A DNA stretch of 64,000 nucleotides from assembly GCF_900880625.1 (NCBI RefSeq), contig NZ_CAAHFB010000001.1:868001-932000 (forward strand). Direction: 5' to 3'. A model generated the notes under the pieces. It had not been told where the DNA came from. It was given only the letters and a program-made list of their open reading frames with translations, and did not search any database. Positions 18,573 to 23,051 of the stretch are shown here, in pieces. The position numbers were made by a program, and so were the translations under genes. This DNA is from Halorhabdus rudnickae (GTDB lineage Archaea > Halobacteriota > Halobacteria > Halobacteriales > Haloarculaceae). Each line of letters opens with the position of its first letter. The stretch's first letter is position 1.

Positions 18573-19346
18573 ATGAAACGCGTCCGCTTTCGCGACCCGA
18601 CGGGTACCATCCGCGGCGGTCGATGGCTCGTCGAGGACGGCCAAGAATACGTGACGACGGCACTGGGTGAACCGGAGACGGTCGCGACGGACGAACACAC
18701 GTATCCGGCCGAGTCGGTCGACGTACTCCCGCCCGCCGAACCGACGAAAATCGTCGCGATCGGTCGCAACTACGCCGACCACGCCGACGAACAGGACGCC
18801 GATGTCCCCGATCGGCCGCTACTCTTTCTCAAACCCCCCAACACCGTCGCCAGCCACGGCTCGACGGTCTCGTTGCTGCCCGACAAGGAACGGCTGGACT
18901 ACGAAGCCGAACTCGCAGTGATCATCAGCGAGACGTGTCACAACGTCGACGCCGACGACGCCGAGGACGTCATCGCGGGCTACACTTGCTTCAACGACAT
19001 CTCCAACCGCGACGACCAGCGCGTCGAAACCAACTGGGTCCGCGGGAAGGCCTTCGACAACGCCGCGCCGATGGGACCGGTGCTCGCGACCCCCGATGAG
19101 GTCCCGGCAGATGCGACCATCGAGTGCCGCGTCAACGACGAGACGCGTCAGTCGGGCAGCCGCGAAGACATGGTCTTTGCCGTGCCCGAACTGATCGAAG
19201 AGATCACCGCCTACATGACCCTTGAACCCGGGGACGTGGTCGCAACGGGGACGCCCGAAGGTGTGGGTCCGCTCGCCGACGGCGACACCGTCGAGATCGA
19301 GATCGAGGGCATCGGGACGCTCGAACACGGCGTTCACATCCCGTGA
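18573..19346 (+). CDS. Fumarylacetoacetate hydrolase (FAH) family protein
   Basis: 257 residues. The FAH fold is shown by IVAIGRNYADHA, the metal ligands in LDYEAELAVII (two Glu) and the Asp of CFNDISNRDDQ, then GKAFDNAAPMGPVL and VVATGTPEGVGPL. Family members hydrolyse or decarboxylate beta-keto acids such as acylpyruvates and oxaloacetate; this short single-domain form most resembles acylpyruvase/oxaloacetate decarboxylase types. The specific substrate is not decidable here. Monocistronic by position, divergent from the tyrosine biosynthesis gene. Confidence 0.88.
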   Translation: MKRVRFRDPTGTIRGGRWLVEDGQEYVTTALGEPETVATDEHTYPAESVDVLPPAEPTKIVAIGRNYADHADEQDADVPDRPLLFLKPPNTVASHGSTVSLLPDKERLDYEAELAVIISETCHNVDADDAEDVIAGYTCFNDISNRDDQRVETNWVRGKAFDNAAPMGPVLATPDEVPADATIECRVNDETRQSGSREDMVFAVPELIEEITAYMTLEPGDVVATGTPEGVGPLADGDTVEIEIEGIGTLEHGVHIP

Positions 19347-20142: not shown

Positions 20143-21072
20143 ATGCGCGACATCCCCGGTATCCACCACGTGACAGCGATCGGGAGCGATCCCGGTGAGA
20201 ACCTGGCGTTCTACACCGAGACACTCGGCCTCCGGCTAATCAAACGGAGCGTCAACCAGGACGACACCTCGGTCTATCACCTCTTCTACGGCGACCACTC
20301 GGGATCGCCGGGCACCAGCATGACCTTCTTCCCGTACCCCGGCGCACGGCCGGGGCGGGTCGGCACCGGGCAGGTCAGCACGACGCAGTTCCTGATCCCT
20401 GCCGAAGCCATCGATTACTGGGTCGATCGCCTCGCCGAGGCAGGCGTCGACGCGGGAGACCCCCACGAGCGCTTCGGCGACACTGTCCTCTCATTCGAGG
20501 ATCCCGACGGCCTCCCCCTGGAACTGATCGGCGTCGAGAACGCTCCTGCCGGCGATCCGCCGGAGGGGCCGGTCCCCGCCGAGCACGCGATCCGCGGGTT
20601 CTACGGCGTGACGCTCGCGCTGTCGGAGACCGACGCCACGGAACGGGTCCTCGAGACGATGGGCTACGAACGGACGGGAAACGAGGGGAACCGGCTCCGC
20701 TACGAAACCGACGGGGACCTCGGATACGTCGTCGAGTTGCTCGACGATCCCGACGTGGCCGACGGGCGACCTGGTGCGGGGACGATCCACCACGTCGCGT
20801 TCCGCGTCACCAGCGACGATCAGGCCGATTGGCGCGAGAAGTTACAGCACCTGGGACTGCGCCCGACGGAGATTATCGACCGCAAGTGGTTCGAGTCGGT
20901 CTACACCCGGACACCGGGCGGTGTCCTCTTCGAGTACGCCACGGAGGGGCCGGGGTATACAGTCGACGAAGACCTCGAAGGGCTGGGCGAACGGCTCGTC
21001 CTGCCCGAGTGGCTCGAGGACCGCCGCGGGCAAATCGAGAGCGGACTGCCGTCGCTGTCGACTGACGGTTGA
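20143..21072 (+). CDS. Ring-cleaving dioxygenase (VOC family, MhqO-like)
   Basis: 309 residues with two vicinal-oxygen-chelate modules. The first starts IPGIHHVTAIGSDPGENLAFYTETLGLRLIKRSVNQDD, typical of MhqO/PcpA-like extradiol enzymes. Metal ligands would be His8 or His9, His in IHHVAF of module two, and Glu in GGVLFEYATEGPGYTVDE. Bacillus MhqO-type enzymes act on hydroquinones and catechols. Here it sits beside DoxX and an HxlR regulator, the same trio of functions found in the Bacillus catDE/mhq electrophile responses, suggesting quinone or catechol detoxification. It converges on doxX. Confidence 0.83.
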   Translation: MRDIPGIHHVTAIGSDPGENLAFYTETLGLRLIKRSVNQDDTSVYHLFYGDHSGSPGTSMTFFPYPGARPGRVGTGQVSTTQFLIPAEAIDYWVDRLAEAGVDAGDPHERFGDTVLSFEDPDGLPLELIGVENAPAGDPPEGPVPAEHAIRGFYGVTLALSETDATERVLETMGYERTGNEGNRLRYETDGDLGYVVELLDDPDVADGRPGAGTIHHVAFRVTSDDQADWREKLQHLGLRPTEIIDRKWFESVYTRTPGGVLFEYATEGPGYTVDEDLEGLGERLVLPEWLEDRRGQIESGLPSLSTDG

Positions 21073-21132
21073 AACGTCGTCTACTCGGTGCTGTCGGACT
21101 ATTCGCAACTATCGGGATGGTCTCAATCCGGA

Positions 21133-21549
21133 TTAGAAGAGACCGACGCCGACGCTATACGTCCAGGACTGGCTGGCGACCGCGGCGACGATAAGCGCCC
21201 CGCCAGCCATCACGACGTTCTTCAGGAACTGTGTCATCTCGTCTTGCTGCTGGTCCTCGGGAACTGCCCAGAAGTCGTGCATCGTCGCCGCGGCGACCAG
21301 CAGGAACCCGGCGATGGCCATCGCACCGACGACGGGATAGAACCCGACGACGATACTGAGTCCCCCCGCGATGAGGACAACAGCCGACGCGATTACCGAG
21401 AAGCCGGGGGCGGGCAAACCTTTGTGCTCGGCGTAGCCGGTCATCGCCTCGCGCTGCTGGAAGTGATTCAGCCCCATGAACGCCAGGACGACTCCAAACA
21501 GCACGCGACCAGCGAGGAGGATTGCCCCCTCGGTTCCAGTGAACGCCAT
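21133..21549 (-). CDS. DoxX-family membrane protein
   Basis: 138 residues with four membrane helices and the DoxX-type pattern GRVLFGVVLAFMGLNHFQQ near the N-terminus, then GLPAPGFSVIASAVVLIAGGLSIVVG. In Bacillus, CatD and MhqP of this family work with ring-cleaving dioxygenases in quinone stress; in other settings DoxX subunits belong to thiosulfate:quinone oxidoreductase. The neighbouring dioxygenase and regulator favour the first role. Divergently transcribed from the HxlR regulator with a shared 139-base promoter gap. Confidence 0.82.
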   Translation of the reverse strand: MAFTGTEGAILLAGRVLFGVVLAFMGLNHFQQREAMTGYAEHKGLPAPGFSVIASAVVLIAGGLSIVVGFYPVVGAMAIAGFLLVAAATMHDFWAVPEDQQQDEMTQFLKNVVMAGGALIVAAVASQSWTYSVGVGLF

Positions 21550-21626
21550 CAGACGACCACCCCTCGTCCCGGTGTGTCGATATCAATCCAGTCTCTCGTG
21601 GCTCCCATAGTCAGTGTCATTGCGTT

Positions 21627-21650
21627 AGTTGGTTCGTTTCCGAACCTACT
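21627..21650. promoter_or_regulatory. Inverted repeat, candidate HxlR operator
   Basis: AGTTGGTTCG (21627-21636) and CGAACCTACT (21641-21650) pair over ten bases with one mismatch around a four-base centre. The inner six bases pair perfectly. It lies in the divergent gap between doxX and the HxlR-type gene, close to a TATA-like CTTATGA, so it could control both directions, including autoregulation. Confidence 0.6.
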
Positions 21651-21688
21651 TATGATCTCGGCGACAATATCGTGACCAGATAACACCG

Positions 21689-22042
21689 ATGTCACCCGAG
21701 ACAGTCACCGGGACAGAGACGATTGACGAACAGAACGCCGAGGCCTGCCCAGTCGTCGAGGCGGTCGAACAGATCGGCTCGGAGTGGCGCCTGATCGTAC
21801 TACAGAATCTGACCGACGGCGAACAGCGGTTCAACGAACTCAAGCGCTCGACGGGCGCGAGCTCGCGGACACTCTCGCGAGTCCTCGACGACCTCGAGGA
21901 TACCGGGTTAGTCGACCGTCGTGTCGAGGATCGACCGATCGCGACGTACTACTCACTGACCGAGAAGGGCGAAGCGTTGTGTCCGGTTTTCGCGGAACTG
22001 GAATCCTGGGCGGGAGAGTGGATCGAGAGCGTCGAGGGGTGA
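21689..22042 (+). CDS. HxlR/DUF24-family transcriptional regulator
   Basis: 117 residues, a single winged helix-turn-helix of the HxlR type: ACPVVEAVEQIGSEWRLIVLQNLTDG, then RFNELKRSTGASSRTLSRVLDDLEDTGLVDR and a wing. A conserved N-terminal cysteine, Cys20, sits at the start of the first helix, where Bacillus YodB and HypR carry the redox cysteine that reacts with quinones or disulfides. A second cysteine is in ALCPVF. Probable repressor of doxX and the dioxygenase, released by electrophiles. It faces doxX across the inverted repeat at 21627-21650. Confidence 0.87.
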   Translation: MSPETVTGTETIDEQNAEACPVVEAVEQIGSEWRLIVLQNLTDGEQRFNELKRSTGASSRTLSRVLDDLEDTGLVDRRVEDRPIATYYSLTEKGEALCPVFAELESWAGEWIESVEG

Positions 22043-22185: not shown

Positions 22186-22554
22186 ATGGAAGTCCTGGTG
22201 GGTGTCGGCGGCACGGGGCGGTCCTTCGAGGCGCTTGAGAGTACCGTCGAGCGGGCAAAGCAGGCGGACGATGAACTTACAGTGGCGGTCTTCGACGACC
22301 CATCGGCGGGCCTGACCAGGGCACAGGTACGGGATCGAGTGCGGGAGATCGTGACCGAGCGCGGGGTTGATCCACCCCTCATGGAGGTCGACGGCGATCC
22401 CGGATCACAGCTCGTACAGATCGCCGAGACCGGCGGGTTCAACCAGTTGGTGATCGGAAACGGGGCGCGGACGCCGATGGGGAAGATCCAGCTGGACAGT
22501 ATCGCACAATTCGTCCTCTTTAACTCCCACGTCACCGTAAAGCTCGTTCGATGA
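22186..22554 (+). CDS. Universal stress protein-like, single domain
   Basis: 122 residues. MEVLVGVGGTGRSFEALESTV opens a UspA-like fold and GNGARTPMGKIQLDSIAQFVL near the end corresponds to the nucleotide-loop region, although its sequence is not the canonical G-2x-G-9x-GS. Cytoplasmic, role unknown. Its last four bases overlap the start of the GNAT gene (ATGA), so the two are translated together. This is one of four Usp-domain genes in the window. Confidence 0.75.
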   Translation: MEVLVGVGGTGRSFEALESTVERAKQADDELTVAVFDDPSAGLTRAQVRDRVREIVTERGVDPPLMEVDGDPGSQLVQIAETGGFNQLVIGNGARTPMGKIQLDSIAQFVLFNSHVTVKLVR

Positions 22555-23051
22555 ACGAGTCTCCCCCGCTGGAGCCACCGCCGGTGACGTTCGTCGACGA
22601 GGAGGGGCGACCGATTCGGATCGAACGGAGCGAGGGGGACCGGGACGCCCTGGTCACCATGTACGACAGCTTCGCACCGCACCAACGCGCCCAGGGACTC
22701 CCACCGGCCGGTCGCCAGCGCATCGAAGAGTGGCTGACGACGATCGAGGCAGGGCTGCACGTGATCGCCTGGCACGACGATCGAGCAGTGGGTCACGCCG
22801 CATTGCTGGCTGGCCCGGAGGATCACGAACTGATGATCTTCGTCCACCAGGACTATCAGCTCGCAGGTATCGGTTCCCGGCTGATCCGTGCGTTACTCGC
22901 GTGTGGACGCGAGGCCGACGTCGAGGATGTCTGGTTGTGTGTCAGGCCGAGCAATTCGGTCGCGGTTTCGCTGTACCGCTCGGTCGGGTTCGAACCGGTC
23001 GAGTCCGGTGAAACTGAACTCGAGATGAGCCTGACCTTCGAGGAGAGCTAG
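22551..23051 (+). CDS. GNAT-family N-acetyltransferase
   Basis: 166 residues. The acetyl-CoA-binding motif A is recognisable as ELMIFVHQDYQLAGIGSRLIRALLACGR (Q/R-x2-G-x-G/A type: QLAGIG), and the C-terminal region VWLCVRPSNSVAVSLYRSVGFEPV is the standard motif B. The acceptor, whether protein, amine or antibiotic, cannot be inferred. Translationally coupled to the Usp-like gene upstream; such GNAT-Usp pairs suggest stress-linked acetylation, which is inference only. Confidence 0.85.
   Translation: MNESPPLEPPPVTFVDEEGRPIRIERSEGDRDALVTMYDSFAPHQRAQGLPPAGRQRIEEWLTTIEAGLHVIAWHDDRAVGHAALLAGPEDHELMIFVHQDYQLAGIGSRLIRALLACGREADVEDVWLCVRPSNSVAVSLYRSVGFEPVESGETELEMSLTFEES

Follow-up and report, generated by a model that had tools for sequence, protein, structure and literature searches.

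The window analysed here is a 64,000-nucleotide stretch of the Halorhabdus rudnickae genome, to which all coordinates below refer. Three genes lie at the locus:

20143..21072, + strand: VOC ring-cleaving dioxygenase of the MhqO/PcpA type, 309 aa, with Pfam and PDB matches
21133..21549, - strand: DoxX family membrane protein (PF07681), 138 aa, the best-supported target of the HxlR regulator
21689..22042, + strand: HxlR/DUF24 regulator (PF01638), 117 aa, with YodB/HypR matches, a structural model and a fold search

The sequence-only reading had described a trio of VOC dioxygenase, DoxX protein and HxlR-type regulator, and all three are indeed open frames at these positions whose Pfam families agree with the names. 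The VOC protein matches Glyoxalase (PF00903) in two stretches (3e-21) and the DoxX protein matches PF07681 (E 4.2e-13), both above the curated cut-offs, while the regulator matches HxlR (PF01638, E 1.5e-20) with 73.2 bits versus a curated cut-off of 20.8. A search against solved structures found no solved structural relative of DoxX. The VOC gene and doxX face each other, and therefore the trio is not one operon. Behind hxlR (22188-23051) come a UspA-like frame and the gene of a GNAT acetyltransferase; the acetyltransferase is retained downstream of hxlR in H. amylolytica and H. salina.

Between doxX and hxlR lies a composite DNA element with the following parts:

21614..21628, no strand assigned: Box 1, here GTGTCATTGCGTTAG, consensus GTWWCAYYACGTTAC; candidate operator on the doxX side
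21631..21646, no strand assigned: Box 2, GGTTCG-N4-CGAACC; candidate operator that overlaps the hxlR promoter at its BRE-like part
21641..21655, + strand: putative BRE/TATA-like hxlR promoter, CGAACC followed by ACTTATGA, consensus CGAACC-TA-TATATA
21672..21688, + strand: third repeat at the hxlR start codon, consensus GTAACCAGGTAACACCG, recognised by eye

The 10-bp inverted repeat that had been proposed between the divergent hxlR and doxX genes is real: its arms (21627-21636 and 21641-21650) are 10 nt long, 90% complementary and 4 nt apart, and Box 2 is its core. The aligned consensus upstream of hxlR reads GTTTCATNACGTTACC (Box 1), TGGTTCGNNNCCGAACC (Box 2) and then TATATA; the third repeat, compared by eye, reads approximately as the junction of Box 1 and Box 2 in reverse complement. 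Box 1 is 15 bp long: GTAW and WTAC enclose a centre of 7 bp. The YodB operator is laid out as TACT-N7-AGTA (PMC8063818, in excerpt), and Box 1, a candidate operator only, shares this 15-bp layout although the letters differ.

The HxlR/DUF24 regulator and its N-terminal cysteine

Numbered from the ATG at 21689, the HxlR protein carries a cysteine at residue 20. Its best solved relatives by sequence are YodB (5hs7, E 6e-14) and then HypR (4a5m, E 9e-14), with QsrR lower (E 5e-09 to 2e-09). Foldseek with an AlphaFold2 model of the regulator (48 sequences, mean pLDDT 85) placed reduced YodB first (E 5.5e-07), followed by HxlR and HypR, and again QsrR lower. Sequence matches and fold search thus agree on a regulator of the YodB/HypR/QsrR (DUF24) kind. 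Cys20 aligns with the N-terminal sensing cysteine of YodB and HypR, and the modelled helix begins at this residue (pLDDT 59 for residues 11-20 and 79 for residues 21-30). According to the excerpted text of PMC8063818, YodB Cys6 likewise lies at a helix N-terminus, which raises its reactivity.

The ortholog comparison covers 154 rows, which come from 138 haloarchaeal genomes spread over 54 genera and 12 groups at family level. These rows are phylogenetically related, so the counts are not independent events, and one locus enters twice, as L009 and as L173. A cysteine occupies position 20 in 151/154 rows, which together with the YodB/HypR alignment bears out the sensing position suggested for it. 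Of the three remaining rows, L028 and L170 have a poor start or no N-terminus, and L171 is a divergent copy.

Cys20 is not proof of quinone sensing, because an N-terminal Cys is common among DUF24 proteins, including the formaldehyde-sensing HxlR (PMC7835342, in excerpt). B. subtilis HxlR resembles the haloarchaeal protein in Pfam family and fold (7bzd, a good match with TMq 0.77), and both likenesses would suit a sensor of formaldehyde or other aldehydes. However, Bacillus HxlR activates other genes and possesses the Lys of the formaldehyde cross-link, which joins Cys11 to Lys13 (same excerpt), whereas the Cys-x-Lys pair is missing from the haloarchaeal regulator (Lys at position 22 in 0/154 rows). 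No hps/phi-type or aldehyde genes occur among the partners of the hxlR rows either, and we regard aldehyde sensing as highly improbable.

Second cysteines of the bacterial proteins are not conserved. The counterpart of YodB Cys101 is absent, with Cys at position 112 in 0/154 rows. At position 55, which corresponds to the second cysteine of HypR (presumably Cys49, needed for its cross-subunit disulfide), Cys is found in 0/154 rows and Thr/Ser in 154/154. Cys98, a possible second cysteine of the regulator, is present in 87/154 rows, and 36/154 rows are without any other Cys in positions 21-117. This lowers the case for the name YodB or HypR but not for the mechanism, since a QsrR variant is described as sensing with one Cys (PMC12893000, in excerpt). 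The regulator passes as a DUF24 family member, not as a two-cysteine YodB or HypR.

The same residues bear on a HypR- or OxsR-like activator, in which oxidised Cys20 would stabilise the dimer on DNA and disulfide or hypochlorite stress would turn doxX on. HypR ranks second among the solved relatives, the CPVVE of the window resembles the CPVE of HypR, Box 1 sits where an upstream element of doxX would, and OxsR, a haloarchaeal redox regulator of another family, both activates and represses under hypochlorite via C24 (PMC9426492, in excerpt). We nevertheless consider an activator unlikely, as the Cys of the HypR cross-subunit disulfide is replaced by Thr/Ser in every row, and as Box 2 and the third repeat flank the hxlR promoter, which is a better fit to autorepression. 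Less likely still is that a small-molecule ligand (phenolic or metabolite) is sensed without thiol chemistry, Cys20 being structural: MhqR, which controls the same kinds of enzymes, has a quinone pocket without a conserved Cys (PMC12893000, in excerpt), but the near-invariance of Cys20 at the sensing position (151/154 rows) argues against such a role. The reading that we favour, and consider fairly probable, is that the hxlR product is an autoregulated thiol-switch repressor of doxX, of the YodB/QsrR kind, released by Cys20 modification.

Divergent partners of hxlR and the composite element

Partners were sought by phmmer within 2.6 kb, and the first divergent unit of each hxlR row was counted. 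The divergent position is taken by doxX in 61/154 rows (59 genomes, 24 genera, 10 of 12 families), the divergent doxX of L022, found by tblastn, having been missed by the phmmer neighbour count. A VOC gene without doxX is the partner in 19/154 rows, an Abhydrolase_2 phospholipase/carboxylesterase (MhqD-type) in 10/154 and a nitroreductase in 3/154. Dioxygenases, nitroreductases and the phospholipase/carboxylesterase MhqD are enzyme types of the YodB/QsrR/MhqR regulons (PMC6798810 and PMC12893000, both in excerpt). Altogether, 93/154 rows have doxX, an MhqO-type VOC, an MhqD-type hydrolase or a nitroreductase divergent from hxlR, and in these the targets are of the quinone-detoxification type that characterises YodB/QsrR-type sensors; none of the four families is divergent in 61/154 rows, the pHME505 copy of Haloferax mediterranei included. 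In 19 of the 61 doxX-divergent rows, from genera other than Halorhabdus, a VOC gene follows further on in the same direction, and Natrononativus amylolyticus has the order ring-cleaving dioxygenase, DoxX family membrane protein, helix-turn-helix (PGAP-style names).

A nitroreductase is the divergent partner in one genus of another family, f9 (L011, L045, L080). No doxX homologue appears among the matches listed for two or three of their genomes, and the nitroreductase possibly replaces DoxX as the effector in this genus.

Allowing at most one mismatch, Box 2 is present in 63/154 hxlR upstream regions, which are related rows, versus 1/628 control windows, and Box 1 reaches the 99% level in 59/61 doxX-divergent rows. 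The 18-base Box 2 site occurs once, at zero mismatch, in the whole genome of the window. A genus-wide regulon scan with these 18 bases found only the hxlR-doxX site to be shared, and other two-mismatch matches in the genus genomes were near the level of the reversed-pattern control.

The strongest evidence that doxX belongs to the HxlR regulator, beyond chance adjacency, is that the element also precedes doxX genes unlinked to hxlR. A 33-column profile was built from 121/154 hxlR upstreams (<=3 mismatches, spacer 4), and a full element was called at a score of >=25; scores on the hxlR rows are circular, and the doxX, VOC and random sets are the only tests. The doxX genes that are unlinked or only loosely linked (roughly at least 48% identity) make up at least about 45 rows, of which 37 were scored; G141, G109, G097, G137, G014, G086 and G110 were left unscored, and G029 (L061, score 48) was excluded from the unlinked set because hxlR lies 1.5 kb away.

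The full element stands at 17/37 scored unlinked doxX genes, in 8 genera and 5 families, and is absent at 20/37. It was found at 0/8 more distant DoxX paralogues (maximum 11.4) and in 0/173 random 600-base stretches (maximum 13.8). All 17 element-bearing genes are in genomes without an hxlR-linked doxX (17/29); where a genome does have a linked doxX, 0/5 second copies score >=25. Fisher tests on the unlinked doxX genes gave 0.004 versus paralogues and 0.04 versus second copies, values that shared descent among the genomes may inflate in significance. At the 99% threshold, Box 1 is found at 23/37 and Box 2 at 14/37 unlinked doxX genes, with 0/8 controls for each. Some unlinked units (G125, G098, G113, G047) have the order VOC, hydrolase, element, doxX. 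Co-occurrence in relatives, a test set in advance by the sequence-only reading, thus holds for doxX, both divergent from hxlR and through the element at unlinked copies, and computation identifies doxX as a target, whether it lies beside hxlR or elsewhere in the genome.

The left arm of Box 2 was also considered as a mere BRE of hxlR; this explanation is insufficient, as the element is kept at unlinked doxX with no hxlR opposite. A group of unlinked doxX genes (L271-L290, e.g. L272, L273, L277, L279) keep Box 1, Box 2, the right-hand TATA-like half and also TTCGGCGACA, with no hxlR and mostly no clear gene start on the right-hand side of the element, where there may be a small RNA or a short ORF. 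Some unlinked doxX genes (L282, L283, L284, L285) have Box 1 without Box 2 and then another TATA-like stretch, which suggests that Box 1 is the doxX-specific part of the element.

The ring-cleaving dioxygenase beside doxX

The VOC protein is matched over its length by MhqO of B. subtilis (PDB 3oaj, E 4.9e-76), and also by the PcpA 2,6-dichlorohydroquinone dioxygenase (4huz, E 1.9e-50). Its H9, H217 and E264, two His and one Glu, are putative Fe ligands, as they align with the PcpA residues which we take to be the iron ligands.

The VOC gene is convergent with doxX in the window and in 7/7 genomes of the genus Halorhabdus, and it has a BRE/TATA-like promoter of its own (CCGAACGGCTAT-like, kept in 5/6 aligned Halorhabdus upstreams). 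The profile search did not find the regulatory element upstream of the window VOC, and among its closest homologues elsewhere (~51-75% identity), which are unlinked, 0/26 carry it (maximum score 9.3). One operon or regulatory trio including the VOC gene was rejected on account of this convergence, the separate promoter and the missing element. A catDE-type operon, with doxX and the dioxygenase in one unit under the regulator, does not occur in Halorhabdus; the VOC gene adjoins doxX but is probably separately transcribed, and hxlR-doxX is the only supported regulatory pair there. The proposed likeness of the trio to the catDE/yodB and mhq systems therefore stands for the YodB-kind regulator, the MhqO-like VOC and the co-occurrence of doxX, but not for the VOC gene in a shared unit.

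Upstream of the VOC gene, positions 18573-19346 encode a fumarylacetoacetate hydrolase family protein (HpaG-like, 6e-56), which could handle the ring-cleavage product of the VOC enzyme. The hydrolase gene adjoins the VOC gene in the window, is directly beside it in Halorhabdus salina (L239) and was not detected in stretches from four other species, some of which are possibly too short. It was weighed as a fourth member of the module and was not adopted as one.

A proposed thiol switch on a haloarchaeal promoter

In the mechanism that we propose, HxlR would be a homodimeric winged-helix protein that represses rather than activates. In the reduced state it would bind the composite element, at Box 1 on the doxX side and at Box 2 and the third repeat round the hxlR promoter, blocking TFB/TBP or the polymerase and keeping both hxlR and doxX low. 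Cys20, where helix 1 begins, would be alkylated or drawn into a disulfide by an electrophile or oxidant (quinone, hypochlorite or disulfide stress); DNA binding would then be lost, and DoxX plus more repressor would be made. DoxX might help to dispose of the electrophile on the membrane side. The MhqO-type dioxygenase encoded beside doxX may open the hydroquinone or catechol ring, outside the supported switch in Halorhabdus. Quinone or catechol electrophiles are the most likely signal, because the partner enzymes are of YodB/QsrR/MhqR regulon types, and general disulfide or hypochlorite stress would be the next likely.

The system resembles YodB/CatR with catDE of B. subtilis in the DUF24 winged helix, the N-terminal Cys with which helix 1 begins, the 15-bp layout of the candidate operator Box 1, and the DoxX and ring-cleaving dioxygenase partners. 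The DoxX protein of catDE is CatD. Unlike YodB/CatR, the haloarchaeal system has a BRE/TATA promoter, an autoregulated divergent layout and no counterpart of Cys101, and unlike catDE, doxX and the VOC gene are not an operon in Halorhabdus. QsrR of Staphylococcus aureus is likewise a quinone-sensing repressor of the YodB family with dioxygenase and nitroreductase targets (PMC6798810, in excerpt), but the haloarchaeal regulator shows no equivalent of the second cysteines of QsrR (29, 32). The MhqR regulon (mhqED, mhqNOP) shares the MhqO dioxygenase and the MhqD-type phospholipase/carboxylesterase, whereas MhqR itself belongs to the MarR proteins and lacks a conserved Cys (PMC12893000, in excerpt), so that the link to MhqR is an analogy of target genes only. 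OxsR of Haloferax volcanii is also a haloarchaeal thiol-based regulator with one N-terminal Cys and an element near BRE/TATA, but it belongs to the TrmB family and has a CG-rich motif and a hypochlorite regulon (PMC9426492, in excerpt).

One-cysteine sensors of the quinone/oxidant type were called hard to find in archaea in the excerpted part of a 2022 paper, and neither an archaeal DUF24 redox regulator nor an hxlR-doxX module was described in the literature searched, whose coverage was partial. The presumed chemistry and the partners are known; the domain of life and the promoter architecture appear new. On a broader scale, we give about even chances that haloarchaea possess an electrophile regulon of the YodB kind, autoregulated and thiol-switched, whose conserved Box 1 and Box 2 operator, woven into BRE/TATA, follows doxX and to which lineages attach different quinone-disposal enzymes. 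With such a system, the action of a bacterial-type thiol repressor on an archaeal TFB/TBP promoter could be studied, and DoxX, a widespread protein, would gain a regulated physiological setting.

The regulator is nearly confined to haloarchaea: at 1e-18 it was found in 28/196 genomes across the phylum, all but one in the order, and within a sample of 146 genomes of that order, 124 have a YodB-kind protein. The Haloferax mediterranei pHME505 copy (L297) has an Rrf2-type neighbour and no doxX or VOC within 4 kb. Copies of the regulator are carried on 36 haloarchaeal plasmid records.
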